Notes under the pieces: model-generated | Database searches by the model: none | The model's input: the letters and a program-made list of their open reading frames with translations, nothing else | Told to the model about the DNA's origin: nothing | DNA from: a virus | DNA: 38,808 nucleotides | IMG/VR virus record: IMGVR_UViG_3300030329_004873 | Location: 1 to 38,808 of that record | Reading direction: 5' to 3' (one strand) | Position numbers and translations under genes: made by a program | Shown here: in pieces, positions 12,243 to 34,661 of the stretch | Numbering within the stretch: position 1 is the first letter of the stretch | Layout of the letters: every line of letters begins with the position of its first letter

Positions 12243-12273
12243 CTCATGCGCTCAGTCTCCTACTCTCCCCCGG

Positions 12274-16132: not shown

Positions 16133-18216
16133 CAGTTCTGATCCGGGTTGACGTTGACCTTTTGGCCGATGGTCTGCGCAGAGCTGCGCACGGCTGAATC
16201 CACAGCGCCAGTGGCGGCCTGCACGGCTGCCAGCGGTGAACCACCGTTGCCGCCAGGAGCTGCCGCGCCCGTTCCTTGCGCGGGCCGCAAGCCCTGCGCC
16301 TTGGATTGCAGCGCTTCCTCGTGCTGCTGCATGTGCAGTTGGACAAACTGCGCCACGATCTGCTGGAGATGTGGAGGCAGCTGTGTAAACTGCGGGCCAC
16401 CGATGATTTGTCCGTGCTGCTCCAAATGCACCCGGTGATTTTCGTCGGGGTGGACCTGCAGCGGCTGGCCGCCGCTTAGCTGATTCATCTGCAACATGGC
16501 GGTGTTTTCCAGCTGTGCGGCTCGCACGGCATCTGCGTGCACATGGTCGCCCAGGAACCTCTCGACGTTGGGCACCCGGAAAGCCTGCAATAGGAGCTTT
16601 AGCGATTCCTGGCGTGGCACTTCGGGGATTTGCACCAAGTAGTTGAACAGGGCCAGCGCATCGTCCCGTTCGAGCTGGTCGTACAACGGCTTCATCGACC
16701 CGGCCTCGATGTCTACGCGGAATCGGGCTTTGAGCATGTCGCCCCGCACGGCATGAAACACGGGGTCGTAATCGTCGTGCGCTGTGTTGATGATGAAGTT
16801 TTCGGGCGTGTATCGAGCGTCAGCGAAGATCCGCAGATTGTTGTAGGTGATCTTTTCAAACACGCGGGCCACCTCATCCTGCAACCACTCTCGATTGAGC
16901 TGGCCGAAAGAAGCGTTGAGGGCGGACTGCGTAGCCGTCACCCGAGACCCACCGACGCTGGTGGTGCCCACGTGGAGCGTCTGCTCCTCGTAGTTACGGA
17001 GATCGGATTCCGCCCCCAACTGATCTGGCAGAATGTTGCCTGTCAGCAGTTCGCGGAAACTGTTGTTCGGATCGTTGCTCCAGATGATGTGGCCGTCCTC
17101 GGCCTTTTGTAGCTCTTCATCGACGTTGGGGTTTATGCTTTTTTCACGCTGGTTGCCGACGATGATTCGAGCGCCCCGCTTTAGGTTGTCCATGCGGCGG
17201 GACATAGACTCGATGATGCCCAGCTGCGACACTTCGCCGTAGGCCATCATGGGCAGACCGTAGAGGCCGTCGAATGAGTGGTCGAACTTCATAGGGATGT
17301 AAGGAAAGCCCTGGTCAACCAAAAATCCCCCAGTCGGCGTAAACCCGACCGTGCGTTCCTCCCCTGTGAACGGGTCGGCCTCAGTAATGGTCCGCCCCGC
17401 TAAGAACGGGTGTTCCACGTCCTCGATAGGTTGCTCAACACCCTCGGCAAACGTGTACATGCGCTTGTGGATTCGGTCATGGATTTCGTTGAGCACGACA
17501 TACTTGCCCTCGATCCGCGAATCCTTGACAGCCTGCTGCTCTTCCTCGTTTAGGTTGGGCGACCGGCTAATGTCCTCCAGCATCGCTTCCTGGGCCTCTT
17601 CGTCAGACAGAGGCTTAATCTTGTTTCGCTCTTTCGACCTCTTGAACCGCGAGTCCTCCATCACGAACTCAAGCGGAGCCAGCATCCGTTCACGCACAAA
17701 CCGGGCCTGCCCAAAGTCATGCGGAGGCGTCAGCGGGTCAGGGAAGATGTCGAACGGTGACCGGCGTTGCACGAACACCATGCCGTTGGCCAGTGAATCG
17801 TTGGCCACATAGGGCGGCACCAGATCCTCGTCGCCGGGTGGGTTTACGCCCATCTTCACCCAGCCGATGTTGCAGTACAGCGCATCGAAGATCTGCTGCT
17901 GCACTTCTCGCTTGGCGTTTTGCAGGTGCAGCGCATCGTTGGCAATGCGCTCCATGATTTCCGTTTGGAACTCCAGCGTTTGCTCTTCGACACGCAGAAG
18001 CACACGCGGGTTGAAAAACGCCGTAGACGCAATAATCTGACGGGTCAGTGGATAGAAGCGACTGATTTTTCGCTGCTTGTTCTCTTCCACTGTCAGCTGT
18101 TTAAACTCAAGCCGGTACATATCCAGCAAGCGTTTCCACAGCTTGTGCTTTGGAGCCATGTAGCGATTTGTGGCGTCTATCTGCTTCTGCCAGAAATCAA
18201 CGTCTTTTTGCTTCAT
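16132..18216 (-). CDS. Portal protein
   Basis: 694 residues, the long form typical of podovirus-like portals. Features include an N-terminal helical clip region, SPFDIFPDPL, a long central helix region with GLPMMAYGEVSQLGIIESMS, and a Gln-rich C-terminus (LPPHLQQIVAQFVQLHMQQH) that fits the crown or barrel of large portals. It lies downstream of terL with two small genes between. The protein forms the dodecameric vertex through which DNA is packaged and ejected. It overlaps both neighbours by 1-4 bases. Confidence 0.85.
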   Translation of the reverse strand: MKQKDVDFWQKQIDATNRYMAPKHKLWKRLLDMYRLEFKQLTVEENKQRKISRFYPLTRQIIASTAFFNPRVLLRVEEQTLEFQTEIMERIANDALHLQNAKREVQQQIFDALYCNIGWVKMGVNPPGDEDLVPPYVANDSLANGMVFVQRRSPFDIFPDPLTPPHDFGQARFVRERMLAPLEFVMEDSRFKRSKERNKIKPLSDEEAQEAMLEDISRSPNLNEEEQQAVKDSRIEGKYVVLNEIHDRIHKRMYTFAEGVEQPIEDVEHPFLAGRTITEADPFTGEERTVGFTPTGGFLVDQGFPYIPMKFDHSFDGLYGLPMMAYGEVSQLGIIESMSRRMDNLKRGARIIVGNQREKSINPNVDEELQKAEDGHIIWSNDPNNSFRELLTGNILPDQLGAESDLRNYEEQTLHVGTTSVGGSRVTATQSALNASFGQLNREWLQDEVARVFEKITYNNLRIFADARYTPENFIINTAHDDYDPVFHAVRGDMLKARFRVDIEAGSMKPLYDQLERDDALALFNYLVQIPEVPRQESLKLLLQAFRVPNVERFLGDHVHADAVRAAQLENTAMLQMNQLSGGQPLQVHPDENHRVHLEQHGQIIGGPQFTQLPPHLQQIVAQFVQLHMQQHEEALQSKAQGLRPAQGTGAAAPGGNGGSPLAAVQAATGAVDSAVRSSAQTIGQKVNVNPDQN

Positions 18217-19232
18217 CCGGGATCGGCTCCCTGCCGTTGAAGGGCAATTCGCAATCGGTCAGCTGCCGCCCCGGTATTGGGGATGGCATCGCCCGCCTGC
18301 CGGGATGCAATAAGGCGACGACGCATCTCGTAGAGTGTGTCGGGGATAAGCGCGTCTAAGCGAACGATGTCGGCTGAGAGGACATCATCGACGATACGCT
18401 GTAGTTCCTGTCGACTGTAGGAGATGTGGGGGCCCCGCCGGGCAAGATTGTCCATAAAAGACATAGGAAAGATCGTGTCGGTTCTGGTGCCAGGCGCGGG
18501 CGGGCGCGTTTTGAGGAAGTCGATGAACTTATCGGATACCCCTTCGATCTGCGCTGCCTCCTCGACATCCCAAAAGTCAGGTGGCGCCGACGGGCTGGCA
18601 ATCCGTGAATCGAGGGGCTTCATGCCAATGGCTGACCCCCCCACGCCCCCGGCAGCAAGAGGAGCCAGGTCAGATTCGGCGTAATTTTTGGCCACATGCG
18701 CGTCCTGGACCTGCTGTCGCACGTTGGGAGCCCTTGATGAGCCTGGCCCACCCTCCATCTTGAGTCCCTTTGCGATTCCTTCTGGTGCGCCCATGCCTTC
18801 CAACAGTTCCACCAGCGGGTCAACGTCTGCCTCGTCAACGCCCAGCGTGCCGCCCCGCAGCTCCGCACTTGGAGCCGCCTTGCTAATGATGTCCGCCATG
18901 TCGCGGCCAGGACGCACGCCCGGTCCCGGCTGCCCAAACAGTTCGCGCACAAAGCGCAACGCTTGCGGGTTCACTCGATCCAGGCGCATCAGCAACTTGG
19001 TGACGGATGCCAAATCCCCCATCGACCCCGGCATTTCGCCAATCTTCATCATGCCGGGGTTTCGGCGCAGCAGCTCTATATGGGACATCAGCTCGGGCTG
19101 GTATTCGGCTTCTCGCTTGGCACGCAACTCAGGCGCCGGCGCAGCAAGCGGCATGGCGTTTACACCCGGCGCACCCGTTGTCATCGCCGTCGTTGGAAAC
19201 CGCTGATTGGCCAGCCGGTTGAGCATCGTCAT
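18213..19232 (-). CDS. Hypothetical protein sharing an N-terminal tag with its neighbour
   Basis: 339 residues. The N-terminus (MLNRLANQRFPTTAMTTGA) is nearly the same as that of the next gene upstream (LLRRLANQRFPTTAMSTGA), while the rest differs. The body is helical and Pro/Gly-rich, with no recognised domain. It lies between terL and portal and overlaps both neighbours by 4 bases (ATGA). A shared N-terminal segment on two consecutive proteins suggests a common docking or targeting signal. Confidence 0.6.
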   Translation of the reverse strand: MTMLNRLANQRFPTTAMTTGAPGVNAMPLAAPAPELRAKREAEYQPELMSHIELLRRNPGMMKIGEMPGSMGDLASVTKLLMRLDRVNPQALRFVRELFGQPGPGVRPGRDMADIISKAAPSAELRGGTLGVDEADVDPLVELLEGMGAPEGIAKGLKMEGGPGSSRAPNVRQQVQDAHVAKNYAESDLAPLAAGGVGGSAIGMKPLDSRIASPSAPPDFWDVEEAAQIEGVSDKFIDFLKTRPPAPGTRTDTIFPMSFMDNLARRGPHISYSRQELQRIVDDVLSADIVRLDALIPDTLYEMRRRLIASRQAGDAIPNTGAAADRLRIALQRQGADPG

Positions 19233-21929: not shown

Positions 21930-22331
21930 CTAAAACGGTAGGTCGTCGTCCTGGTCGAGCGGCGGAGAGGCCGCCATCGCTTCAGAATTGGGCGTTGAAC
22001 CCGGAGCCGTATCGAGAAATAACAGCTCCCGGACGACACATTCAGTGCGATAATGCTTGTTGCCGGAATCATCATCCCAGGTGCGCGTTTGCCAGCGGCC
22101 CAGCACATAGAGCTTGGCCCCCTTCTTACAATACTGCGTCACGACCTCAGACAGCCGACCCCATATAACAAGAGGCACCCACTCAACCCGAGACTTGCGG
22201 TCGTCGCCAGTGCCCCACTCCTCATTAACAGCCAACGACACGTTACACACCGTGCTGTTGCCTGCCTGCTTTAACTCTGGGTCCGCACCCAGATTTCCAA
22301 TAAAAGTGCAGACGTTTATGCCTCTTGCCAT
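21930..22331 (-). CDS. ssb: Single-stranded DNA-binding protein
   Basis: 133 residues. It has the classic OB-fold SSB start MARGINVCTFIGNLGADPEL, then VEWVPLVIWGRLSEVVTQYC and the acidic tail ending DDDLPF, which in bacterial SSBs recruits replication and repair proteins. Because SSBs start at this Met, it also shows that an ATG directly after GGAAGGAGG is used in this phage. It works with the RecT-like protein encoded at 32220. Confidence 0.93.
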   Translation of the reverse strand: MARGINVCTFIGNLGADPELKQAGNSTVCNVSLAVNEEWGTGDDRKSRVEWVPLVIWGRLSEVVTQYCKKGAKLYVLGRWQTRTWDDDSGNKHYRTECVVRELLFLDTAPGSTPNSEAMAASPPLDQDDDLPF

Positions 22332-23280: not shown

Positions 23281-24116
23281 CGGCTCTCCTTCCCCCCTCG
23301 TCTCTTAGGAGTACAATTTGACTGCGGTAACCGGCCCGGAACCGGGGGGTCGCGTGCGGCTTCACCTTCGCCCACCGCCAAACTCGCCAGCCAGACAGCC
23401 AGGCACGAGCTAAGCCCTTGCAGCACAACAGCTTAGCCCGTGCACTCAAGCTGGGCCAGCTTGCCCCCACAACAGCCTAAGCCCCTGTAATTACAGGCGG
23501 TTGCGGGGTTCCTCAACTGGCGGCTTCCCCCAGTGGTCCCCCAGCCTGGACGGCCAGGCCGTGTAAACGGCCCGGCACCCAGCCATGGCCAAAGGAGTAC
23601 GAATTCGTGTTTCGTGAGTGGCTATGCGTGCCCGTCCACCGGTCCCGGTGAACCAATCAAGGCAAATGGCCACCTGCTCACACACAACGCCGGGGGGCCG
23701 TGTAAACGGTGCGGCCGGAGGTAGTCCAGGGCACCGCACCCGGTGGCCACAGTCACCGTCAGACGGCCCTCTAATTTTTTTTCGTTTAAACGCCCTACCT
23801 CTGGAAGATTTCTCTTGACAGTGGCAAAATGCCACCGTAAGTTCATACCCGTCAGCAAGACACCGCTGACCCCTACCGGCACTCGGTCGCGGCAACGCAC
23901 CGAGAGGCACCCCAGGCTCGACTCGAAAGAGTCACGCGGCCCGTGTCTAACGAAGCGGAGAGGGAGCATAGCAGATCATAGGCACCTGAGAAGGGGCGGC
24001 CCGGACAAAGCACCGGGCTGGTAGTATCACCACAGTATCAGGTCACCGTGAGAGGCCGTGAGCAGCGGCCCAAGTCAAGGCGAACTATCAGATTGTGTGT
24101 GAGAGTGAACAGTAGT
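23281..24116. promoter_or_regulatory. Divergent control region and leader of the ribozyme array
   Basis: I see no supported gene. It contains three GT(T/G)TAAAC octamers (23561, 23700, 23784), two of them centred in GGCC...GGCC-type inverted repeats. It also holds the sigma70-like promoter at 23815-23843, a GCCCGG/CCGGGC hairpin near 24000, repeated AGTATCA and CCGTGAG words, and a 25-base scar (24079-24103) of the end of the 26952-27443 gene. The RNA leader from the promoter to the first ribozyme is about 270 nt. Confidence 0.6.
23815..23843 (+). promoter_or_regulatory. Sigma70-like promoter with operator palindrome in its spacer
   Basis: TTGACA (23815-23820), a 17-base spacer and TAAGTT (23838-23843). 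The spacer begins with the perfect inverted repeat GTGGCA-AAA-TGCCAC (23821-23835), so a dimeric repressor bound there would block RNA polymerase. GTTTAAAC lies about 24 bases upstream of the -35 box. It is the best candidate promoter for the whole ribozyme-separated array. The phage's own HTH proteins (30166, 35044, 35460) are possible binders. Confidence 0.65.
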
Positions 24117-24186
24117 TGACGAGGGCTGGCCAGCACGTGTAAACGTGCCGGCCAGTAAGTCGCAGAGCCGGTCCCAAGCCCGGCTC
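24117..24186 (+). ncRNA. Twister-type ribozyme 1 (leader)
   Basis: P2 TGAC/GTCG, GAGGG internal strand, P1 stem of about 12 bp with loop TGTAAA, TAA then GTC, P4 GAGCCGG/CCGGCTC with loop TCCCAAGC. Predicted cleavage is between U24156 and A24157. It ends the untranslated leader, so cleavage would remove the leader from the first gene. Confidence 0.85.
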
Positions 24187-24212
24187 ACACTCACTCACAA
24201 GGAGCAAGCAAG

Positions 24213-24614
24213 ATGATGCCGATGAAGCAGCGCGTTGCCCAGCTGGGTCTGGCCATGGAGTCAGAGCTGGTGGAGGCGAACCCCGACATGATTGGCGAGA
24301 TGGCCCCAGGTAGTATGCACTGGAGGTGTACGATCACGGCCCGCGAGGGCGGCAGTATGCTGGTGCACTTCAGCCAGGGTCCAGCCGTATGCGAGGAGCC
24401 GACGCTGGAGGGCGTGTTGGGCTGCGTGGTGGACGAGGTGTCGAGCGTGGTGAACGTGACCAGCTTTGAGGAGTGGGCCACGTCGCTGGGCTATGACACG
24501 GACAGCCGCCGAGCGGAGGCCGGGTTCAACCACATCGTCAAGCATACGGAGCAGCTGATGATGCTGGTGGGCGGCGAAGCGTTTAACGATCTGCTGTATG
24601 AAACGTCCGAGTAG
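24213..24614 (+). CDS. Array gene 1: conserved hypothetical phage protein
   Basis: 133 residues after AAGGAGCAAGCAAG. A globular N-terminal half is followed by FEEWATSLGYDTDSRRAEAG, then FNHIVKHTEQLMML. I associate this pattern (EE..., GYD.DSR.AE....) with widespread uncharacterised phage proteins. The function is unknown. Its TAG stop is one base from the next ribozyme. Confidence 0.7.
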   Translation: MMPMKQRVAQLGLAMESELVEANPDMIGEMAPGSMHWRCTITAREGGSMLVHFSQGPAVCEEPTLEGVLGCVVDEVSSVVNVTSFEEWATSLGYDTDSRRAEAGFNHIVKHTEQLMMLVGGEAFNDLLYETSE

Positions 24615-24615
24615 C

Positions 24616-24677
24616 TGACGAGGGGCGCAGCGTGTAAACGCTGCGTTAAGTCACAGCCACGGTCCCAAGCCCGGCAC
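24616..24677 (+). ncRNA. Twister-type ribozyme 2
   Basis: Shortest P1 (CGCAGCG/CGCTGCG, loop TGTAAA). Core GAGGGG, TTAAGTC and loop TCCCAAGC are intact. Predicted cleavage is U24647^A24648. P4 is weakened to about 3 bp by an apparent two-base loss compared with units 9 and 11. Confidence 0.8.
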
Positions 24678-24705
24678 ACTCACTCACTCACAAGGAGCAC
24701 GAATC

Positions 24706-24984
24706 ATGAGCATGATTTTCACGTCAGACAACGAAAAGGTGAAAATCCTAACCAGTGAAACGCTCGCCGCCGGCGTGTTGTACATCTACTCAACAAAGCC
24801 GGGTGATGAGCTGGGGGAGGGCAATCGGCTGGATAGCCTGACCCTAACGCCTGACGAGATGATAAGCCTTGGTCGCACGTTGACCACTCGCGGCGAAGCC
24901 CTCAAGGAAGACAAGAAGCATAGCGTGGTTGTTGAGCGAATCAGACCGGTGGAAGCGCCACGGCCGTTTGGTGAGGGAACATGA
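24706..24984 (+). CDS. Array gene 2: small hypothetical protein
   Basis: 92 residues after AAGGAGCACGAATC. An N-terminal beta region (KVKILTSETLAAGVLYIYST) is followed by TLTPDEMISLGRTLTTRGEA, which may be a short helix-turn pattern. No family recognised. About 30 untranslated bases separate its TGA from the next ribozyme, unlike most units. Confidence 0.6.
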   Translation: MSMIFTSDNEKVKILTSETLAAGVLYIYSTKPGDELGEGNRLDSLTLTPDEMISLGRTLTTRGEALKEDKKHSVVVERIRPVEAPRPFGEGT

Positions 24985-25015
24985 GGCGCAGTGGCTGGCG
25001 GACAAAATTAACAGC

Positions 25016-25085
25016 TGACGAGGGGTGCCGGGCACGTTTAAACGTGCTCGGTATTAAGTCGCAAGCACGCACCAAGCGGGCACAC
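25016..25085 (+). ncRNA. Degenerate twister-type ribozyme 3
   Basis: The first half is intact (TGAC, GAGGGG, P1 with GTTTAAAC, TTAAGTC; predicted site U25055^A25056). The second hairpin has lost the CCGG-TCCCAAG element and reads CGCACCAAGCGG, removing the CCC needed for the pseudoknot. The downstream leader also lacks the usual CACTCAC block and uses AGGAGG. It is probably inactive or altered. Confidence 0.6.
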
Positions 25086-25122
25086 ACTCGGGTGCCCGCC
25101 TTCAAACCCAGGAGGAAATAAA

Positions 25123-25368
25123 ATGAAATATTACTGCGACGGATTCCAGAGCGTAGAAGCGGACGACCCCAGCGAGGCCGCAGAAATCTTTGCCGCAAGG
25201 CTGGCCCGCAGGGAGCATGGCCGAGCGGGGCGGGTTGGGCCAGTTAACATGAATGGGTTCGTCTACGGGGGCGGGGTCTGGGACTACTCCGCATTCATCG
25301 GCTACAAGGGCGGCGGCGGCGGTTTGACAGGCGCGGACGTAGCACTGTCGGTATACACAAAAGAATGA
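25123..25368 (+). CDS. Array gene 3: small hypothetical protein
   Basis: 81 residues after AGGAGGAAATAAA. Starts MKYYCDGFQSVEADDPSEAA, followed by helix EIFAARLARREHG and a Gly-rich C-terminus. The opening resembles small phage proteins in which an aromatic N-terminus is followed by a helix of the 'S..EAAE.FA.R.A..' type; no named domain. It is followed by a scar of the neighbouring SprT gene. Confidence 0.6.
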   Translation: MKYYCDGFQSVEADDPSEAAEIFAARLARREHGRAGRVGPVNMNGFVYGGGVWDYSAFIGYKGGGGGLTGADVALSVYTKE

Positions 25369-25376
25369 GTAAGGCA

Positions 25377-25421
25377 ATGTGGTCCGAGGTCACACACCCG
25401 GACGAAGCATGCAAGCGTAGC
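25377..25421 (+). pseudogene. Remnant of the SprT-like gene 3' end
   Basis: This stretch is identical to the last part of the SprT-like gene (WSEVTHPDEACKRS and stop; 26190-26234), and the identity runs on through the ribozyme. It follows the unrelated array gene 3 with no start of its own. It is a recombination scar from gain or loss of a gene between two ribozyme units. Confidence 0.85.
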
Positions 25422-25489
25422 TGACGAGGGGTGCCCGCACTGTTTAAACAGTGCGGGCATTAAGTCGCGGTGCCGGTCCCAAGCCCGGC
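25422..25489 (+). ncRNA. Twister-type ribozyme 4
   Basis: P1 TGCCCGCACTG/CAGTGCGGGCA with TTTAAA loop, P4 GCCGG/CCGGC with loop TCCCAAGC. Predicted cleavage is U25461^A25462. Compared with its otherwise identical copy (unit 5), the P1 pair T25441-A25450 is replaced by C-G, a compensatory change. Confidence 0.87.
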
Positions 25490-25517
25490 CTACTCACTCA
25501 CACAAGGAGCAAGAATC

Positions 25518-26237
25518 ATGGCACCCACAATCAAAAAGATGCCGCGTGCGAAGTCCCGCGAAGAGTGGCTGAACAACGCTATCAAGCTGAGCCGCCCCAT
25601 CTTCCGAAAGCTCAAGTGCCCGCTGCCACGTAAAGTGCGGGCGGCGTGCTCGTGGACGTCGCACGGTGCACGGTCAGCGGCCATCGGCCAGTGCTGGACG
25701 TACGAGGCCAGCAAGGATGAGACGGTAGAAATTCATATCTCCCCCAGGCTGGACGATGTATTGACCGAGGGCAAGCAAGGCGTACTCGACACGGTCGTGC
25801 ACGAACTCGGACACGCGGCGGCGGGAGTTGACGAGGGCCACAAGGGCGAGTTCGCACGAGTAGCCCGAGAGTTGGGGCTGGCGGGGCCGTTGACCGCCAC
25901 GAACGCCGGGCCTGAGTTCGTGAAAATGTTCAGGCCGATAGCACGGGCACTGGGGCCGTACCCGCACGCCGAGTTGCGGCCCAGCATGATGGTACCCGCT
26001 GGGCCAGGTGGCGGCGCTGGCACCCCAAGCGGCCGAGGCGGCGCACCCGTGCCCCGCACAAGCGGCCCACGGAAACAGGGCACGCGAATGCTCAAGGTCA
26101 TGTGCAAGGATTGCGGTTACACACTGCGCACCACTCGCACCTGGCTGGAAATGCAAGGCACGCCAAAGTGCCCGTGCAACGATACACCGATGTGGTCCGA
26201 GGTCACACACCCGGACGAAGCATGCAAGCGTAGCTGA
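25518..26237 (+). CDS. Array gene 4: SprT-like zinc metalloprotease with C-terminal zinc ribbon
   Basis: 239 residues from the ATG after AAGGAGCAAGAATC; an upstream in-frame ATG lies inside the ribozyme leader and is rejected. The catalytic motif HELGH at residues 95-99 is followed by GHKGEF with a third metal ligand near His108. This is the HExxH...H arrangement of SprT/Spartan-like proteases, which cut DNA-protein crosslinks in cells. A Pro/Gly linker leads to a zinc ribbon (C196-x2-C199 ... C218-x-C220). In a phage it could process host or packaging DNA-protein complexes; this is inference. The TGA stop is also the start of ribozyme 5. Confidence 0.8.
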   Translation: MAPTIKKMPRAKSREEWLNNAIKLSRPIFRKLKCPLPRKVRAACSWTSHGARSAAIGQCWTYEASKDETVEIHISPRLDDVLTEGKQGVLDTVVHELGHAAAGVDEGHKGEFARVARELGLAGPLTATNAGPEFVKMFRPIARALGPYPHAELRPSMMVPAGPGGGAGTPSGRGGAPVPRTSGPRKQGTRMLKVMCKDCGYTLRTTRTWLEMQGTPKCPCNDTPMWSEVTHPDEACKRS

Positions 26238-26303
26238 CGAGGGGTGCCCGCACCGTTTAAACGGTGCGGGCATTAAGTCGCGAGCACGGTCCCAAGCCCG
26301 TGC
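26235..26303 (+). ncRNA. Twister-type ribozyme 5
   Basis: P1 TGCCCGCACCG/CGGTGCGGGCA, P4 GCACGG/CCGTGC with loop TCCCAAGC. Predicted cleavage is U26274^A26275. Its first three bases are the stop codon of the SprT-like gene. Confidence 0.88.
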
Positions 26304-26330
26304 ATTCACTCACTCACAAGGAGCAGCAAA

Positions 26331-26492
26331 ATGACACGCCATAGGGAAGTAAACCGGACGGCCATGGCCCGCTTGCTCAAGGACTGCCGTCAACGGGGCG
26401 CAGAGTTTCAATACCATATCAATTCCCTGGGGCACCGCTCGCTATCGGTTGAGTTGTACAACCGAGGGGTGCGCTTCTATCATATCTACTGA
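26331..26492 (+). CDS. Array gene 5: 53-residue hypothetical protein
   Basis: Short gene opening MTRHREVNRTAMARLLKDCR and ending VRFYHIY, with AAGGAGCAGCAAA before the ATG and its TGA shared with ribozyme 6. A basic helical N-terminus is followed by two predicted strands. The ribozyme-leader-SD context on one side and stop-ribozyme fusion on the other strongly support it as a real gene. The function is unknown. Confidence 0.75.
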   Translation: MTRHREVNRTAMARLLKDCRQRGAEFQYHINSLGHRSLSVELYNRGVRFYHIY

Positions 26493-26558
26493 CGAGGGAT
26501 ACCGGGCACGTTTAAACGTGCCCGGTATTAAGTCACAACACCGGTCCCAAGTCCGGTG
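26490..26558 (+). ncRNA. Twister-type ribozyme 6
   Basis: P1 of 12 perfect pairs (ATACCGGGCACG/CGTGCCCGGTAT), P4 CACCGG/CCGGTG with loop TCCCAAGT. Predicted cleavage is U26529^A26530. It begins with the stop codon of array gene 5. Here GGGA can pair with all of TCCC. Confidence 0.88.
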
Positions 26559-26588
26559 CATTCACTCACTACACAAGGAGCACGTCAA

Positions 26589-26858
26589 ATGTTCTACACA
26601 ATCGTGCAGCATAGCGCGTACGGCTACGGTTCGGAACCACAGTTTCAGCACGGGCTCGAAACGCGGCAGGTGAACACCAAGGCCGAACACGCCAAGGTGC
26701 GCAAGGCGGGCGGCGTAATTATGGAATACATCGAGGCTGAGGATTTCGTTGAGTCCGAGTCGTATCCCCCAGGCAATAGCGGGCTGGTTCCGGCCGCACG
26801 GGGCTCGTTCGCACGGGCTAAGGTGGACGGTTTGCGTATTTACGTTCCGAGTAGCTGA
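26589..26858 (+). CDS. Array gene 6: small hypothetical protein
   Basis: 89 residues from the ATG after AAGGAGCACGTCAA. Begins MFYTIVQHSAYGYGSEPQFQ and has a helix NTKAEHAKVRKAGGVIMEYI. No family recognised; the predicted mixed alpha/beta fold is compact. The TGA stop opens ribozyme 7. Confidence 0.65.
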   Translation: MFYTIVQHSAYGYGSEPQFQHGLETRQVNTKAEHAKVRKAGGVIMEYIEAEDFVESESYPPGNSGLVPAARGSFARAKVDGLRIYVPSS

Positions 26859-26924
26859 CGAGGGGTGCCGGGGGCGTTTAAACGACTCGGCATTAAGTCA
26901 CAGCACCGGTCCCAAGTCCGGTGC
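26856..26924 (+). ncRNA. Twister-type ribozyme 7
   Basis: P1 is imperfect (TGCCGGGGGCG against CGACTCGGCA), but the outer five pairs and GTTTAAAC tip remain. P4 GCACCGG/CCGGTGC with loop TCCCAAGT is perfect. Predicted cleavage is U26894^A26895. It begins with the stop codon of array gene 6. Confidence 0.82.
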
Positions 26925-26951
26925 ACCCACTCACTCACAAGGAGGCACAAA

Positions 26952-27443
26952 ATGCCCAAAAGCCAACCCACCTGCGCAGATCGTGTAAACGGCAGCTGGC
27001 AATCGACGCGGCAGGATTTGCATTGCATGTATGGTTGCAGCGGCTGGGGGGCACTGCCGTCTGAGGTAGAGTTGCGTGCGTTTCTCGCGGACCAGGGACA
27101 GGACGCGGAAGAGCTACGCAACATGGACCGGGACGAGTTAGACCAACAAGCGGCCGACATCCGAGGCGAGTACGGCCTGGAGTTCAGCTATGTGGCCCCG
27201 CACACGTTTGAGGATCAGCCAGACGGCTACTATCGCTACCTGTTTAGCACGGGCGGGCCAGGCACGGAGTTGCGGTTCTATCCTCGGGCCACGTCTGAGG
27301 AACGGCTGGATAGGGCTGAGTACTGGTTTCTCGACTGGTATGACGGGGCCAACATTACAGTCACAACGGACGAGGTTGTTCAGGCCGTCTGGGAAGATTT
27401 ATACGACACCGGGGCGGTATGGCGAACTGCAGATTGTGTGTGA
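26952..27443 (+). CDS. Array gene 7: acidic hypothetical protein
   Basis: 163 residues after AAGGAGGCACAAA. Acidic and aromatic, with segments LRAFLADQGQDAEELRNMDR, GYYRYLFSTGGPGTELRFY and ERLDRAEYWFLDWYDGANIT, then a C-terminal helix TTDEVVQAVWEDLYDTGAV. No family is recognised with confidence; small acidic phage proteins of this kind are often anti-defence or DNA-mimic proteins, but nothing here proves that. A GTGTAAAC octamer lies inside the gene at 26983. A copy of its last 24 bases is left as a scar in the array leader (24079-24103). Confidence 0.65.
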   Translation: MPKSQPTCADRVNGSWQSTRQDLHCMYGCSGWGALPSEVELRAFLADQGQDAEELRNMDRDELDQQAADIRGEYGLEFSYVAPHTFEDQPDGYYRYLFSTGGPGTELRFYPRATSEERLDRAEYWFLDWYDGANITVTTDEVVQAVWEDLYDTGAVWRTADCV

Positions 27444-27455
27444 GCCTGCAATTAC

Positions 27456-27525
27456 TGACGAGGGGTGCTGAGCACGTTTAAACGTGCTCAGCATTAAGTC
27501 ACAACTCCGGTCCCAAGTCCGGGGT
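27456..27525 (+). ncRNA. Twister-type ribozyme 8
   Basis: P1 TGCTGAGCACG/CGTGCTCAGCA, P4 ACTCCGG/CCGGGGT with loop TCCCAAGT. Predicted cleavage is U27495^A27496. It differs from unit 10 by one base across the core, and that change only turns a G-C pair into G-U. Its downstream leader is nearly identical to that of unit 12. Confidence 0.88.
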
Positions 27526-27554
27526 AGAACTCACTCACACATTGGAGGATTTAC

Positions 27555-27935
27555 ATGGCACGCAAAGCCGAAGCTATTCAGCACTGGCGCAGCTTGGAGT
27601 CGGATCAGCCGATCTTGCGACACTTCACGCCAATTCCCTACAAGGCAAGCGGCAGCAAGTACGGAACGTGCGGGATACGGATTGACGGTAGCCCGCAATT
27701 TGTGGACGCGGTGCTGTCCCGGTTGCAGGATCTGATCGACGGCGAAAATCACGCGACACGGCTGGAGTTGTCGCGCAGGCCTGTTACCAGCGAGTTCAAG
27801 GCCATGCCCAACGCGGTGCAAGACTCGGAAGTCTGCTACATCCGACTGCACATGCGCGGAGGTCAGGCCGCTACGCTGCTGTTCGACCGAAGCCTGGACG
27901 ACGCAACGGAACGATTTGCCAAGGCACAAAGCTGA
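27555..27935 (+). CDS. Array gene 8: hypothetical protein
   Basis: 126 residues after TTGGAGGATTTAC. Mixed alpha/beta, with IDGSPQFVDAVLSRLQDLID and HATRLELSRRPVTSEFKAMP. No family recognised. The TGA stop is shared with ribozyme 9. Confidence 0.65.
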   Translation: MARKAEAIQHWRSLESDQPILRHFTPIPYKASGSKYGTCGIRIDGSPQFVDAVLSRLQDLIDGENHATRLELSRRPVTSEFKAMPNAVQDSEVCYIRLHMRGGQAATLLFDRSLDDATERFAKAQS

Positions 27936-28001
27936 CGAGGGGTACTGGGCACGTTTAAACGTGCCCAGTATTAAGTCACAGCTACGGTCCCAAGTCCGTG
28001 G
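27933..28001 (+). ncRNA. Twister-type ribozyme 9
   Basis: P1 TACTGGGCACG/CGTGCCCAGTA, P4 CTACGG/CCGTGG with loop TCCCAAGT. Predicted cleavage is U27972^A27973. It begins with the stop codon of array gene 8. Confidence 0.88.
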
Positions 28002-28036
28002 CACTCACTCACACTCACTACCATGGAGGAAACACC

Positions 28037-28522
28037 ATGGAAGGTCAGACGTTTACACACTTCGGTGTCGGTGCCAATGTCTGGGCACTGGCCAACGGGA
28101 TCAACGCCTGCGTTGCCCGGCTCGTCGAGGAGGGCGGCTCCCAAAATCTTGAGCGCTACGGCCATGGGGTGTATGAGTTCAGCCGACCCGTGACGCTGGA
28201 CGAGGTGGAGGTGTCGCCCCTGGATGGTGCACTGTCGGCTGCGGAAGATGTCGGCGTTAAGCCCGTAGAGATTCACCGGAGCTGGGCGGACAAGCAGAAA
28301 GACACCAGCACAAACGAGCCTCGGTACAACGGTCGGACGGCCAAGGAGTTGGTTGTGGCCCTTGAGGAGGTGTATTACGGGCTGGAGGAACTGGCCAGCG
28401 ACGTTGACGACGAGGACGACAGCGGTGGCGAGATCCAGAACCACGCCTACGAACTGGAGGTGCTGTTTAACCAGATCGGTGAGGCGCTGGGGATGGAGGA
28501 ATACGGCGGCGTGTGTAGCTGA
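28037..28522 (+). CDS. Array gene 9: acidic hypothetical protein
   Basis: 161 residues from the ATG after ATGGAGGAAACACC; an in-frame ATG 39 bases upstream lies in the leader and is rejected. It contains NGRTAKELVVALEEVYYGLE, then ELASDVDDEDDSGGE, an acidic helix-loop region, and a C-terminal helix YELEVLFNQIGEALG. No family recognised. GTTTACAC occurs near the start of the gene (28051). The TGA stop opens ribozyme 10. Confidence 0.65.
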   Translation: MEGQTFTHFGVGANVWALANGINACVARLVEEGGSQNLERYGHGVYEFSRPVTLDEVEVSPLDGALSAAEDVGVKPVEIHRSWADKQKDTSTNEPRYNGRTAKELVVALEEVYYGLEELASDVDDEDDSGGEIQNHAYELEVLFNQIGEALGMEEYGGVCS

Positions 28523-28589
28523 CGAGGGGTGCTGAGCACGTTTAAACGTGCTCAGTATTAAGTCACAACTCCGGTCCCAAGTCCGGGGT
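28520..28589 (+). ncRNA. Twister-type ribozyme 10
   Basis: P1 TGCTGAGCACG/CGTGCTCAGTA, P4 ACTCCGG/CCGGGGT with loop TCCCAAGT. Predicted cleavage is U28559^A28560. It begins with the stop codon of array gene 9. Confidence 0.88.
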
Positions 28590-28620
28590 ATTCACTCACT
28601 ACACAAGGAGCAAAAATCAG

Positions 28621-29220
28621 ATGAGCGACTGGACGATCACGCACCTACCGCTGGATGGCCCGTTACACCCTCTGCATTACCACTACGAGAGTCAGACTGA
28701 GCCGCAGGAGGCGTATATTGAGATCAACTGGCTCGACCGCACTATACACGCAGACTACGACGGCGAGGTCGGCGGCGACGGTGGGCGATTATGGCACCAC
28801 GACGGCACCTACCTCGTCGAACGAGTCAATTCAACCACCTTCTGCACGGTCCCGTACAATGCGACTGCCGAGGAACTCAACCGCCTACTGAATCAGATCG
28901 GGGCGTCGGTGGCTACTGCGGGGGCAGTAGCCACCGACGATGATTTGGAATCGGTTTTCGAGGGGCTGGTTAGGGCGTTATTCGATGACATCGAGTCGGG
29001 AGAGCATCCCAGGATCTGCACCGCCGAGGAGTGGTTTGGGCCGTGGTCTGAGGGCGATCTGCCGGTTGTCGCCCCTGACAGCACCGACAAGCACCTCGAC
29101 GCGCTGGCCGTCGAGATCGAGCGAGACGCCCGCAAGAACTCCGTCACGGTGACGGGTGTTGACGAGTGGCTGGCCGAGCGGCGGGCTGAAACCGGAGGTG
29201 ACGCATACTGTGAGAATTAA
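28621..29220 (+). CDS. Array gene 10: acidic hypothetical protein
   Basis: 199 residues after AAGGAGCAAAAATCAG. The N-terminus is beta-rich and His/Tyr-rich (HPLHYHYESQTEPQEAYIEI). A helical middle follows (TAEELNRLLNQIGASVATAG), and the C-terminal half contains CTAEEWFGPWSEGDLPVV and a helix DALAVEIERDARKN. Strongly acidic. No family recognised. It contains a perfect 16-bp inverted repeat (28904-28939). The TAA stop is one base before ribozyme 11. Confidence 0.65.
   Translation: MSDWTITHLPLDGPLHPLHYHYESQTEPQEAYIEINWLDRTIHADYDGEVGGDGGRLWHHDGTYLVERVNSTTFCTVPYNATAEELNRLLNQIGASVATAGAVATDDDLESVFEGLVRALFDDIESGEHPRICTAEEWFGPWSEGDLPVVAPDSTDKHLDALAVEIERDARKNSVTVTGVDEWLAERRAETGGDAYCEN
28904..28939 (+). 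repeat. Perfect 16-bp inverted repeat inside a coding region
   Basis: CGTCGGTGGCTACTGC, a GGGG loop, and its exact reverse complement, all in frame within array gene 10 (encoding about ASVATAGAVATD). The messenger could form a very stable hairpin. Confidence 0.9.
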
Positions 29221-29221
29221 A

Positions 29222-29288
29222 TGACGAGGGACACCGAGGCGTGTAAACGCTTCGGTGTTAAGTCACAGTCACGGTCCCAAGTCCGTGG
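29222..29288 (+). ncRNA. Twister-type ribozyme 11
   Basis: P1 ACACCGAGGCG/CGCTTCGGTGT with GTGTAAAC tip, P4 TCACGG/CCGTGG with loop TCCCAAGT. Predicted cleavage is U29259^A29260. Confidence 0.86.
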
Positions 29289-29319
29289 CACTCACTCACT
29301 ACACAAAGGAGCAAGAATC

Positions 29320-29511
29320 ATGGCTGATTATCAGATCAGAGTGTCCGTTAAGGCCAGTTTTCTTGTGTGCCTGGCCGCCAGCGAACTGCCGCTCGACGAT
29401 GACAGGACTATGCGGCAAATCGTATTCGAACACATACGCCAGCAAATAGCGGATTCGGACGCAGAGGACGTTATTGACGAGTGGACGCCCGAAAGCATCG
29501 GACCTATGTAG
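29320..29511 (+). CDS. Array gene 11: 63-residue hypothetical protein
   Basis: After AAAGGAGCAAGAATC. Opens MADYQIRVSVKASFLVCLAA and continues with a helix RTMRQIVFEHIRQQIADSDA and an acidic end. No family recognised; a small ferredoxin-like fold is possible. The TAG stop shares its G with the first base of ribozyme 12. Confidence 0.68.
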   Translation: MADYQIRVSVKASFLVCLAASELPLDDDRTMRQIVFEHIRQQIADSDAEDVIDEWTPESIGPM

Positions 29512-29577
29512 ACGAGGGGCACCGAGGCGTGTAAACGCCTCGGTGTTAAGTCGCAACTCCGGTCCCAAGTCCGGGGT
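29511..29577 (+). ncRNA. Twister-type ribozyme 12
   Basis: GAC/GTC P2, GAGGGG, P1 CACCGAGGCG/CGCCTCGGTG with GTGTAAAC tip, P4 ACTCCGG/CCGGGGT with loop TCCCAAGT. Predicted cleavage is U29547^A29548. It is the last unit of the array. Confidence 0.86.
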
Positions 29578-29604
29578 AGAACTCACTCACACATTGGAGG
29601 ATTT

Positions 29605-29886
29605 ATGCAGCTTACGATGGCTGACTGGCTGCTCCACGGGCAGCAAGCGTGCAAGGACAAACCCTATGTCGCCTGTCGTGATGTTGTGGAGGCACACGCT
29701 ATGGAACGGGTTCGAATTAGAAAAACGGCACGTCCCTATGCGGGTAGGCTGTTGGAGGTGGCAGGCCGCGAAACCTACCCCAACGGGCGAAGTGTCGTAC
29801 GCGTATACCCGCCCCGGAAGAGCAAGTACTACCGGACGTTGGAGTATGAATTGCACGAGGTTCAGGAGGTGCAAGATGAGCCGTAG
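29605..29886 (+). CDS. Array gene 12: small basic hypothetical protein
   Basis: 93 residues after TTGGAGGATTT, the leader it shares with array gene 8. Contains MADWLLHGQQACKDKPYVAC and a basic beta region GRSVVRVYPPRKSKYYRTLE. No family recognised. It overlaps the next gene by 11 bases and has no ribozyme between them. Confidence 0.65.
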   Translation: MQLTMADWLLHGQQACKDKPYVACRDVVEAHAMERVRIRKTARPYAGRLLEVAGRETYPNGRSVVRVYPPRKSKYYRTLEYELHEVQEVQDEP

Positions 29887-30106
29887 AGTGCACCCTGTCG
29901 TGCGTCAGATCGTAGATCGGCAGCACGTTGGTACGCCCAACCGCGAGGTGATCGCGGCCGTAGTACGTGGCCTCAAGGACGGCTGGCGCACCTGGCGTAC
30001 GCTGGATCGTCGCACGCGGCGCAAGTGGATGAATGACGCCATTCGTATACACGCGAGCAACCGCGAGTTGTATACGAATGTCATGCGGTATGGCCGAGGC
30101 GTGTAA
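29876..30106 (+). CDS. Array gene 13: small basic hypothetical protein
   Basis: 76 residues from the ATG at 29876, preceded by AGGAGGTGCAAG. Strongly basic and helical (LKDGWRTWRTLDRRTRRKWM), consistent with nucleic-acid binding, but no named domain. The stop codon TAA lies inside a GTGTAAAC octamer. The next feature is a G-run/C-run element in place of a ribozyme. Confidence 0.62.
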   Translation: MSRRVHPVVRQIVDRQHVGTPNREVIAAVVRGLKDGWRTWRTLDRRTRRKWMNDAIRIHASNRELYTNVMRYGRGV

Positions 30107-30107
30107 A

Positions 30108-30152
30108 CGGGGGTGGGGGTGGTTAAATACACCCCCCCCCTACCCCCCCCCA
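30108..30152 (+). promoter_or_regulatory. G-run/C-run hairpin or G-quadruplex-prone element
   Basis: Runs GGGGGTGGGGGTGG and, 8 bases later, nine C, TA, nine C. The two arms can pair into a strong hairpin, and the G arm (or the complementary strand of the C arm) could form a quadruplex. The homopolymer runs are also prone to slippage. It occupies the place where a ribozyme would be expected. Confidence 0.6.
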
Positions 30153-30165
30153 TTCACAAGGAGGA

Positions 30166-30387
30166 ATGGAAGTGAACTGGACTGGAGTAACATTGCGGGA
30201 GTGGCGAGAGTCGCAACCGCCAGATCGTGAGAAGGTGGGCCGTGGCAAGTGGATCGACTGCCTTAGCCGCGAAGGGCTGGGGCGGCGGCTTAGAGTGCAC
30301 AAGCGGACGATTGCCCGCTGGGAGAATGACGAGCAGCCGATCCCGGCTCCTGTGAAGGTTCTGCTCAGTCTTATGGCTGAGAAGTAG
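30166..30387 (+). CDS. Small helix-turn-helix (XRE/Cro-like) regulator
   Basis: 73 residues. The segment GLGRRLRVHKRTIARWENDE, then QPIPAPVKVLLSLM, fits a Cro/XRE-type HTH in which a recognition helix 'HKRTIARWEN' is followed by the usual 'P....LL..' helix. The ATG is only one base after AAGGAGG; a GTG six bases on (30172) has ideal spacing and is the alternative start. ssb shows that very short spacing is tolerated here. It closes the array and could bind the operator palindrome at 23821. Confidence 0.7.
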   Translation: MEVNWTGVTLREWRESQPPDREKVGRGKWIDCLSREGLGRRLRVHKRTIARWENDEQPIPAPVKVLLSLMAEK

Positions 30388-30408
30388 GGCCAGCCCGTTT
30401 ACACGCAA

Positions 30409-30840
30409 TCAGGAAGCCCTCTGTGCCGGAAGGCGCAGGGGGCTTTTTTTTGTGCTCATTTTGAGTGCCCGCTGGACGGCAGAGGCTCGTGCGGGGTTAT
30501 CGACTATGCGCTGGAACGTCTCATGGTCAACACCGGCGGACTCGTGCCAGATTGAGTTCGCGCACAGGAACAGGGCCGGATCGGGGGCCATGAGTATATC
30601 ATGCACCCGCCCGTGCGTATACTTCTCGATCTTGAGTCGTTTAAACTCACCCGGCTTGACGGTGCCCAGGCCGTTACGCTTGATCTGCGTAAACGCCTTG
30701 CGCACCCGCTGTCCTTCTTTGCTATGCCAGATAAACCAGTCGCGCAGCGCAGATAGCAGCATTTCGCTGGCCAGCCGTTGGTGGCATCGCCTTTTAAGCA
30801 TTTCCCTATAGGCTGGGGTACGACTACGGTCAATGCTCAC
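30409..30840 (-). CDS. Hypothetical phage protein
   Basis: 143 residues, basic and helical, with LKRRCHQRLASEMLLSALRD and a C-terminal Arg/Lys-rich end. The start is GTG in a GTGA overlap with the upstream gene. No family recognised. Its last codons are inside the terminator of the opposing array. Confidence 0.6.
   Translation of the reverse strand: MSIDRSRTPAYREMLKRRCHQRLASEMLLSALRDWFIWHSKEGQRVRKAFTQIKRNGLGTVKPGEFKRLKIEKYTHGRVHDILMAPDPALFLCANSIWHESAGVDHETFQRIVDNPARASAVQRALKMSTKKSPLRLPAQRAS
30414..30451 (+). terminator. Intrinsic terminator of the accessory array
   Basis: Fourteen continuous pairs (30414-30427 with 30432-30445, two G-U) with loop GGAA, followed by eight T. It lies 27 bases after the XRE gene and overlaps the 3' end of the convergent gene. 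GTTTACAC is just upstream at 30397. Confidence 0.9.
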
Positions 30841-32136: not shown

Positions 32137-32223
32137 ATGGGCCTTTCTTATTGTAGGGCTGCCGAGTCATGTACGTCAAGTGCGCCCTTGCGTACATGTA
32201 TGACATGCGGTGACTGCCGATGA
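32137..32223 (+). CDS. 28-residue Cys-rich micropeptide coupled to the RecT-like gene
   Basis: It opens MGLSYCRAAESCTSS and ends CMTCGDCR. The start is preceded by ACAGGAGGAGCG, one of the best ribosome binding sites in the window, and its TGA overlaps the ATG of the RecT-like gene (ATGA). The leader repeats CAACCCCGACCAAGGAG, found again before the gene at 33434. Five Cys in 28 residues could bind zinc. It may act as a leader peptide that opens the 32168-32198 hairpin and delivers ribosomes to the next gene, or as a small protein in its own right. Confidence 0.55.
   Translation: MGLSYCRAAESCTSSAPLRTCMTCGDCR
32168..32198 (+). promoter_or_regulatory. Hairpin hiding the RecT-like gene start region
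   Basis: CATGTACG-T-CAAG and CTTGCGTACATG pair (12 bp, one bulge) with loop TGCGCC, entirely within the micropeptide frame and 22 bases before the next start. Ribosomes on the micropeptide would melt it. Confidence 0.55.
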
Positions 32224-33062
32224 CTACAACTACGCACGTCACCTCCGCCGAAGCCACCCTGGCGGCCGCCTCAGACGAGCTGTTGGAAAAGGTTTTACTG
32301 GAGGGCGATCTATCCAAGCTCTCCGTCCCGCAGCGCCTCGCGTATTACAAGCACGTCTGTGAGTCAGTGGGTTTAAACCCGCTGACCAAACCCTTCGATT
32401 ATGTAAAACTACAGGGCAAGCTGACCCTGTATGCGCGTAAGGATGCCACGGACCAGCTGCGCAAGCTGCATGGGGTATCCGTCGATGACCTGGAGCTGAC
32501 CCGCTCTGACGGCCTGGTCACAGCCTGTGCAAAGGGCTCTGACCGGACTGGCCGGAGGGATGTCGAGTATGGGTCGGTCGCGGCTAATAATCTCAAGGGT
32601 GACGCCCTGGCCAATGCCGAGATGAAAGCCGTCACCAAAGCCAAGCGCAGGCTCACCCTGTCCATGTGCGGGCTGGGCTGGCTGGACGAAACTGAGGTCC
32701 GCACGATCCCAGATGCGGAGCCAATGGATGACATGTTTCACGAGGAACAACAGGCCGACGCGGGGCAGCCAGCAGCTCCGGCCGCTGAACCGGAAAAGGG
32801 ACACCCCCCTGCTCCAACTTCCCAGGGGGATGTCCCCATATCCCCAGAAGAAGCGGCAGAGGAAGAGCCCCACTATTTCCGCTATCTGAAGAAATGCCAG
32901 GAGCTAAAAGCCGACCTGGGTAATGACGCCTACTACGACGTGCTGGGTCAGTTCGACCTGCGTAAGTCCAATGAGGTGGACGGTAGCGACCTGAAAAAGA
33001 TGGGGGCCATTGTAAAGTCACTCATGGCAGTGTCCCAGCTTACCAAGAATGGAATCGTGTAA
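32220..33062 (+). CDS. recT: RecT-like single-strand annealing protein
   Basis: 280 residues. The core LNPLTKPFDYVKLQGKLTLY, then ARKDATDQLRKLHGVSVDDL, is the signature of the RecT/Bet-like group in phages ('GLNPLT.PF.Y....GKLTLYA.KD.T.QLRK'). It is followed by LANAEMKAVTKAKRRLTLSM, then CGLGWLDETE. These proteins coat single strands and anneal homologies during phage recombination. The C-terminus is Pro/Glu-rich and disordered, then helical. It works with the SSB (21930) and the Gam-like inhibitor (34065). The stop TAA lies inside a GTGTAAAC octamer. It has little ribosome binding site of its own, in keeping with coupling to the micropeptide. Confidence 0.85.
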   Translation: MTTTTHVTSAEATLAAASDELLEKVLLEGDLSKLSVPQRLAYYKHVCESVGLNPLTKPFDYVKLQGKLTLYARKDATDQLRKLHGVSVDDLELTRSDGLVTACAKGSDRTGRRDVEYGSVAANNLKGDALANAEMKAVTKAKRRLTLSMCGLGWLDETEVRTIPDAEPMDDMFHEEQQADAGQPAAPAAEPEKGHPPAPTSQGDVPISPEEAAEEEPHYFRYLKKCQELKADLGNDAYYDVLGQFDLRKSNEVDGSDLKKMGAIVKSLMAVSQLTKNGIV

Positions 33063-33805: not shown

Positions 33806-34068
33806 GCCAGCTGGCGCGAATCCTTCAGCAGGCACGATCTGAGGCCCAGGGCGGGCTGGAACAGGATGGGCTGCCCCAGGGTGCCCAAGAGCACCCTATT
33901 GAGAAAATCCAGTACACGTATAAAGAGGCGGCCTTTGTGATGGGGCTGTCAACTCGCTATCTGATGCGCCTGGTCAAAGAGGGCAGGCTGAAAGCTGTTC
34001 GATTTGGCAAAAGTACCCGCATACGCAAGGCGGATTTAGAACAGCTTGTTGAGGATCACCTGGAATGA
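33802..34068 (+). CDS. Excisionase-type helix-turn-helix protein
   Basis: 88 residues. The C-terminal 50 residues (YTYKEAAFVMGLSTRYLMRL, then VKEGRLKAVRFGKSTRIRKA) match the small winged MerR/HTH_17 domain of phage excisionases. The family bends attachment DNA and favours excision. Four GTCAC words spaced exactly 10 bases apart in the attP region are attractive binding sites. It is encoded in the recombination operon, away from int, so it could instead regulate transcription. Confidence 0.75.
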   Translation: MSQLARILQQARSEAQGGLEQDGLPQGAQEHPIEKIQYTYKEAAFVMGLSTRYLMRLVKEGRLKAVRFGKSTRIRKADLEQLVEDHLE

Positions 34069-34661
34069 GACTCGACCCCCCACCACCACCAGAACCCGAT
34101 GAGGACGACCCGATGCCAGAAACGACGTTGGACGAGCTGCAGGCCCGTGACGAGCACCAAGCCACCGACAATAGCCCGGACACCGACGATACAGAGTTCA
34201 TAGAGCCCTTTGCAGAGCTAAGGAGCGACGAGATGGCAGAACACCATCTACGGAAGCTGAAGGGGCACCAGGACGAATATGAGGAGGTGCAGGCCCGCTT
34301 TGACACCGAGATTGCCCGGCTGATGGCGCGGGCCGACCGTGAGCTGCAAAAGATCGAGCGGCGAATATCCTGGCACGAGGGGGGGCTAAAAGCCTACTAC
34401 GTGCGTAAGGGGCAGAAACGGCTGGTGATGGCCAACGCAACCTTGAGCAGTATCAAAGGACGGCCGAGCGTAGATGTGCCCAATCCAGGGCTATTGGAGG
34501 CGTGGTGCGTTGAAACGGGTCGTGCCGAGGTGGACGATCTGTTTCGGCGCACGAAGTCTCCCGACAAAAAGAAGATCCTGGCCTACATCCGGGAAACTGG
34601 CGAAGAGCCTCCCGGCTGCCGGATGATGACTGGAGCAGACTCCTTTAAGGTAAAATTTTGA
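34065..34661 (+). CDS. Gam/Gp157-like host nuclease inhibitor
   Basis: 198 residues. An acidic, Pro-rich N-terminus (1-60) is followed by a long coiled coil (HHLRKLKGHQDEYEEVQARF, then ARADRELQKIERRISWHEGG) and LKAYYVRKGQKRLVMANATL, then SSIKGRPSV. The segment 'ERRI.W.EGGL.AYY...G.KR..M.N.TL....G' is typical of Gam-like and Gp157-like proteins, which shield phage DNA ends from RecBCD-type nucleases. Being in one operon with a RecT-like gene supports this. Confidence 0.78.
   Translation: MRLDPPPPPEPDEDDPMPETTLDELQARDEHQATDNSPDTDDTEFIEPFAELRSDEMAEHHLRKLKGHQDEYEEVQARFDTEIARLMARADRELQKIERRISWHEGGLKAYYVRKGQKRLVMANATLSSIKGRPSVDVPNPGLLEAWCVETGRAEVDDLFRRTKSPDKKKILAYIRETGEEPPGCRMMTGADSFKVKF

Follow-up and report, generated by a model that had tools for sequence, protein, structure and literature searches.

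The ribozyme array and its genes

The window, the whole 38,808-base IMG/VR phage record analysed here (IMGVR_UViG_3300030329_004873), carries between 24.1 and 29.6 kb an array of 12 repeated units, dispersed direct repeats of about 95 nt that are 62-94% alike. Every unit opens with GACGAGGG, mostly at the preceding gene's stop codon or overlapping with it, and its 3' end is the Shine-Dalgarno site ahead of the next start codon. With the Rfam covariance model for the type-P5 twister ribozyme (RF02684), 11 of the 12 units score above the gathering cut-off (48.7-56.2 bits against 37.6), as do all 14 units of a related phage, L009. The remaining one, unit 3 (25017-25122), is degenerate; its P1 hairpin is retained, its GGTCCCAAG core is gone, and the RF02684 search returned nothing even at E<=1.

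All units and array genes lie on the plus strand. Unit 1 (24118-24212; 52.2 bits), a twister with leader, precedes G1 (24213-24614); unit 2 (24617-24705; 52.3 bits), with a short P1, precedes G2 (24706-24984); and the degenerate unit 3 is followed by G3 (25123-25368). Unit 4 (25423-25517; 55.6 bits) stands before the SprT-like gene G4 (25518-26237), unit 5 (26236-26330; 54.5 bits) before G5 (26331-26492), unit 6 (26491-26588; 54.5 bits) before G6 (26589-26858) and unit 7 (26857-26951; 53.1 bits), whose P1 is partly mismatched, before G7 (26952-27443). The row continues with unit 8 (27457-27554; 52.1 bits) and G8 (27555-27935), unit 9 (27934-28036; 50 bits) and G9 (28037-28522), unit 10 (28521-28620; 48.7 bits) and G10 (28621-29220), unit 11 (29223-29319; 51.7 bits) and G11 (29320-29511), and finally unit 12 (29511-29604; 56.2 bits), which is orthologous over its full length in L009, and G12 (29605-29886). 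Of these genes, all of them small, three match PHROGs of unknown function (G1 phrog_4273), G4 has an SprT match (PF10263) below the cut-off as well as phrog_6361 (1.3e-42), and the rest have none.

A candidate promoter of the array was read by eye on the plus strand at 23815-23843 (TTGACA, 17 nt containing the dyad GTGGCAaaaTGCCAC, then TAAGTT, a weak -10); a consensus scan missed it, and both the -35 and the -10 hexamer are present in L009 too. Promoter-like sites number 2 against 2.1 expected, the plus-strand one (26455-26483) lying inside G5 and none within a unit. In 23300-30410 no plus-strand terminator candidate was found besides the strong intrinsic-terminator-like site 3' of the array (30411-30448, plus strand). 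The array is probably a row of single-gene cassettes read as one transcript.

In the twister-P5 fold 97.7% of the cells are paired, 15 pairs have changed on both sides, and the covariation is 0.412 against 0.154 when shuffled. The 5' half of a unit is the P1 hairpin, and the 3' half holds the core and a second hairpin. The two-sided changes affect 11 of 11 pairs in P1 and four of seven in the second hairpin, each helix lying wholly within one half; the contacts that bridge the halves (helix columns 1-3/42-44 and the GGG/CCC pseudoknot, 6-8/57-59) are invariant. Since the variable helices are each confined to one half and the bridging contacts do not vary, a crossover between the hairpins keeps all pairings intact; judged from the aligned sequences, shuffling need not break the ribozyme. 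Damaged hairpins are seen in window units W2 and W7 and in L009 unit B13, with one mismatch in B8, and may record crossovers inside a hairpin.

The trinucleotide UAA follows P1 in all units. Twister ribozymes cleave at U-A. From this known site and the Rfam alignment, cleavage is predicted at U39/A40; the upstream mRNA would then end in P1, and the downstream mRNA would begin with the remainder of the unit as a fixed leader. With both untranslated regions fixed in this way, we infer that each cassette would be insulated from, and independent of, its neighbours.

Gene turnover between related phages

The relative L009 (relative B; IMGVR 3300025141_000488) was located in IMG/VR by its unit pattern. 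Two such patterns returned only L009 and an unrelated phage, L017, which leaves a single close relative in the collections searched; a looser pattern gave four loci, none of them a twister, a genome collection searched in the same way gave one chance match, and cultured phages gave zero unit matches. Among relatives by TerL, L011, L012 and L014 end before the array (the contigs of L011 and L014 stop 400-700 nt short of it), and L015 (78% amino acid identity in TerL) has no ribozyme. The 47.7-kb record of L017 (IMGVR 3300036888_000014) carries four twister-P5 units at 10627-12850, mostly between small genes, and so the arrangement recurs; for L017 itself relatives were sought for the same comparison of seams, the best reaching only 36%.

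The initial annotation had proposed that the units are seams for cassette gain and loss, and that related phages would differ in gene set or order between conserved units, with breakpoints within the units. The comparison agrees: rather than the same genes with breakpoints elsewhere, units of one kind enclose different sets of genes in L009 and in the window, and the breakpoints are mostly within the units. Six genes are common to both phages and collinear (G2, G4, G7, G9, G11 and G12); six cassettes (G1, G3, G5, G6, G8 and G10) are found only in the window and eight only in L009. What the comparison shows is gain or loss (unpolarised with a single close relative), duplication and replacement, without permutation of order, the shared genes being collinear in the one relative. 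In both genomes, neighbouring cassettes are always separated by exactly one in-register unit (12 + 14 units). Of 12 homology-block edges listed by the analyst from the alignment, nine fall at units, which make up 24% of the array (p 2.7e-4).

Shared genes have diverged unequally (SprT 90% identical, and 93% in amino acids; G2 84%; G9 96% in nucleotides; G11 100%), so that the array is a patchwork in which some segments are older than others. Comparison of G9 with its L009 counterpart gives zero synonymous changes; nine of nine changed codons are nonsynonymous and lie mostly in a short patch (28397-28444, DDEDDSGGEIQ vs DDNGLLLGHIQ) that looks as if a small segment had been swapped.

Outside the array, a 14-kb flank is 95-98.6% identical between the two phages and contains two swaps, neither of which is at a ribozyme. 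One replaces a whole virion-region gene (12913-13719), the other is partial and replaces the C-terminus of a second gene (18215-18747), and identity near the edges of both is about 95%. Whole-gene turnover is 6/12 in the array against 1/16 in the flank (Fisher p 0.023). The ribozyme-free swap at 12913-13719 counts against our main explanation, in that it shows units not to be required for swapping. At 21887 the window lacks a segment of about 69 nt with an inverted repeat that is found in four relatives (L009, L011, L012 and L014); the missing segment stands 19 nt from a GTTTAAAC site.

Hybrid units and gene scars

Each unit was divided before TAAGTC, where cleavage is expected, and the halves were compared for all window-L009 unit pairs. 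Pairs sharing only the upstream gene are 0.967 identical in the 5' half (hairpin) against 0.800 in the 3' half (leader), those sharing only the downstream gene 0.787 against 0.925, and the background of pairs sharing neither gene is 0.716 and 0.727; the same-side values were reached in none of 20,000 permutations (interaction p 6e-4). At variable columns, the match between upstream-sharing units is 1.00/1.00/0.94 over columns 1-39 and at background over columns 86-101 (0.07 against 0.10), a stretch in which units sharing the downstream gene match at 1.00. From this profile, most exchanges took place between about column 40 and column 92. The PHI test rejects the absence of recombination (p<5e-4). 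Simple changepoint fits for W1/B1, W8/B8 and W2/B2 ran into the flanks, the gene-end alignments being out of register, and the half-unit, chimera and column-profile tests were used in their place.

When the units are reconstructed as best two-parent chimeras, the parent that shares the gene stands on the expected side in 19 of 23 cases (mean 5.7 and maximum 14 under permutation), a pattern that holds in both genomes. Near-perfect examples are W11=B11|B13, W5=B4|B2 and W9=B10|B8; in L009, B8 is W8|W9 at a distance of 1, the joint expected upon removal of the cassette between units 8 and 9. All hybrid units are in register. Each of the two sequences was assembled from a metagenome across a region rich in repeats, and such hybrids and the scars described below could be false if assemblers had joined variant reads at repeats; the array is indeed repetitive, and two related contigs stop short of it. 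The longest exact repeat of the array, however, is 64 nt, less than common read and k-mer lengths, every gene is intact and in frame, and the correct-side pattern is found in each genome separately, so that we give an assembly artefact a very small probability.

In another reading, cleaved single-gene mRNAs are converted to DNA that re-enters the genome, so that cassettes would correspond to post-cleavage transcripts; each gene, with a leader half before it and a P1 half after it, roughly resembles the expected cleavage product, with U-A at position 39/40. Several switches nevertheless lie 30-50 nt beyond the cleavage site (71-91 in W5/B4, 73-84 in W10/B9), and a non-exhaustive search noticed no reverse transcriptase among the proteins examined. 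Because crossovers reach past the cleavage site, RNA-mediated movement is judged barely credible.

Crossovers are found in no fewer than two zones (columns 33-60 and 71-95 of the unit), which makes a fixed recombinase site unlikely. A site-specific, integron-like exchange, with the unit as a folded recombination site for the phage's tyrosine integrase (36344-37438; PF00589, 3.1e-25), would fit the one-gene cassettes that each carry a trailing hairpin with a palindromic loop, the leader at one end and the presence of the integrase itself. Against this, the integrase scores 59.6 bits with the integron integrase model TIGR02249, for which the cut-off is 265, and the attC-type boxes GTTRRRY and RYYYAAC occur together in none of the 26 units; taken with the two crossover zones, these results led us to reject such exchange as highly improbable.

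Several scars record individual events. The end of the SprT-like gene had been noticed standing alone before unit 4, and this is borne out by 25377-25422 being identical to 26190-26235 at 46 of 46 positions (E 6e-20), past the stop codon of the unrelated G3. The exact match totals 64 nt, reaching 25440/26253 within the ribozyme, and the SprT gene of L009 aligns to the scar from 25375 onward; the scar (25375-25422, plus strand) is a remnant of a duplicated SprT cassette. Over the tail and first half-unit the copies differ at only two positions, which pair with each other (GCACTG...CAGTGC vs GCACCG...CGGTGC), a compensated change. Unit 4 has on its left the SprT tail and the hairpin of the after-SprT unit, and on its right the leader of the before-SprT unit, with the switch at columns 41-60; B4|B3 is its best two-parent chimera among 182 ordered L009 unit pairs. 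The succession of SprT tail, unit and SprT head is thus a tandem-duplication junction from a crossover within a unit. An unequal crossover between the two SprT-flanking units leaves just such a tandem SprT duplication, with unit 4 as the junction, and the first SprT copy was afterwards replaced by G3 except for its last 46-48 nt. The replacement event is not clean; on the left it stops in the damaged unit 3, and on the right in the SprT tail.

A further unit-derived scar occurs in L009, where gene g4 ends in a 23-nt hairpin copy (L009:7506-7528, CCGCACCGTTTAAACGGTGCGGG) of the after-SprT unit, with the stop codon in the loop and the next unit 3 nt on.

A segment of the array leader (24079-24103, plus strand) had been reported to recur at the end of G7, and it does so at 27421-27444; the alignment, with a single gap and a single substitution, scores 18, where 2000 shuffled leaders reached 15 at most. 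The counterpart of G7 in L009 has no leader-like stretch at its end, and 27421-27444 is therefore a 24-nt insert, in which G7 of the window terminates. The likeness claimed for the leaders after units 8 and 12 is also seen; the 3' halves share an exact run of 52 nt and then lead into the unrelated genes G8 and G12.

It had further been proposed that recombination at the units swaps or deletes whole genes cleanly. The gene turnover and the breakpoints in units support the swapping and deletion; the cleanness did not hold, as other breakpoints lie at 24904 (beyond about this position the C-terminus of G2 differs), 25375 (the SprT tail) and 27584 (30 nt into G8, which shares these first 30 nt with L009 9993-10022), along with the 24-nt insert in G7. 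Two of the scars first noticed are consequently imperfect events. Illegitimate recombination at random places, with selection letting only those joints survive that keep genes and ribozymes whole and with the homology of the units idle, would accommodate the three breakpoints outside units, and also the whole-gene swap of the flank, whose edges are near gene ends and away from any ribozyme. It is decidedly unlikely, since random joining would mostly yield duplicated, truncated or out-of-register units, whereas the cassette borders have exactly one in-register unit apiece, the junctions are mid-unit hybrids with halves that follow the correct neighbour, and unit 4 is the junction of an unequal crossover. 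Breakpoints that survive could also have become concentrated at the units through selection that keeps genes and ribozymes intact.

A candidate agent of exchange, and related systems

The explanation that we favour, and consider likely, is that homologous or homeologous recombination from unit to unit gains, loses and duplicates cassettes, the ribozymes being the joints at which the gene set is rebuilt. Driven by the homology of the units, recombination would occur by unequal crossover within one genome or by exchange between co-infecting phages, and each event would delete, duplicate or swap the enclosed gene and leave one in-register hybrid unit. The genes have turned over, hybrid units are present, and unit 4 is the junction of a tandem duplication.

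A candidate catalyst is a predicted Rad52/Red-beta-like annealing protein encoded at 32220-33062 (plus strand). This ORF has zero Pfam, PHROG or NCBIfam family matches; the core of its AF2 model (pLDDT 77-92, against a mean of 63) matches human RAD52 (E 8.5e-5) and lambda Red-beta (8.4e-3) in Foldseek, with a low full-length TM. Also encoded are a Mu Gam-like DNA-end protection protein (34065-34661, plus strand; PF07352, 8.7e-9) and an SSB (21930-22331, minus strand; PF00436, 2.2e-26). The pairing minimum of Red-beta is 23-27 nt, and Rad52-like phage recombinases tolerate diverged sequence (De Paepe 2014, PMC3945230). The longest exact run between unit pairs has a median of about 14 nt, below the Red-beta minimum, so that most unit pairs would be poor substrates; the runs of B3/B4 and B11/B13 reach 24 and 32 nt. 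On the evidence of the structural model, it is plausible that the predicted annealase is the agent of unit recombination.

GTKTAAAC is the most over-represented 8-bp motif of the phage. Outside the array the top two over-represented 8-mers are GTTTAAAC, with 11 sites against about 0.3 expected, and GTGTAAAC/GTTTACAC, with 13 against about 0.6; their sites are spread over the whole window (for example 4106, 7248, 15170, 21861, 23561, 32371 and 33057), in all codon frames and between genes, and 12 of 13 flank sites are retained in L009. One such motif forms the P1 loop in 26 of 26 units. GTKTAAAC contains the stop codons of the annealase gene (33060-33062), of G13 (30104-30106) and of g4 in L009 (L009:7516-7518); the P1 loops of L017 are without it. 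It is conceivable, if unlikely, that the array is an evolved platform for gene exchange, in which insulation at the RNA level, interchangeable halves that keep the ribozyme working and a GTKTAAAC P1 loop as recombination hot spot would be combined.

The PeSL consists of an early promoter and a terminator stem-loop. PeSLs are reportedly the 'mobile regulatory cassettes' of T4-like phages, a description said to go back to Arbiol 2010 and Comeau 2014. Both there and here, repeated intergenic regulatory stem-loop modules give homology for the shuffling of small early genes in plastic regions, and the present array has the PeSL feature that relatives carry different genes whose borders fall in the repeat. 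The units differ in having no promoter or terminator; the module is a self-cleaving ribozyme with a leader and a Shine-Dalgarno site, and the exchange takes place inside it.

Other systems share single features. The SAS/ESAS elements of Cluster K mycobacteriophages (PMC3203893) are likewise repeated, start-associated sequences that contain an inverted repeat and lie ahead of many small phage genes, but they are 13-bp and 2x17-bp motifs of unknown function, without a ribozyme and conserved per gene family, and half-exchange is not reported for them. Relaxed recombination by Rad52-like phage recombinases (De Paepe 2014, PMC3945230) also involves a phage-encoded annealase and mosaicism from diverged homology; that homology lies within genes, whereas here short ribozyme repeats are present in cis at every gene border. 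In Campylobacter group II phages (PMC4546147), inter-module repeats have been proposed as drivers of rearrangement, yet these are kilobase repeat regions between modules of 28-55 kb, as against about 95 nt between single genes. Integron cassettes resemble the array in their one-gene organisation and in the hairpin after each gene, and differ in that the array has no integron-type integrase, attC boxes or fixed crossover point.

The units have the sequence, core and fold of type-P5 twisters (RF02684), and they differ from these in standing in rows of 12-14 copies, one per border between neighbouring genes; in the literature we found no description of twister-P5 rows between genes or of a role for them in recombination. 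Why ribozymes are linked to Mu-like phage genes is described as an unanswered question in PMC10085705. The comparison of the two arrays gives direct evidence of a consequence of phage-associated ribozymes at the DNA level, as joints for gene gain, duplication and loss, and offers a concrete, testable model, akin to the ribozyme insulators used in synthetic biology, of how phages keep fast-changing accessory genes expressible. Shuffling by repeated regulatory modules is already known from T4-like phages; ribozymes in that role appear to be new.
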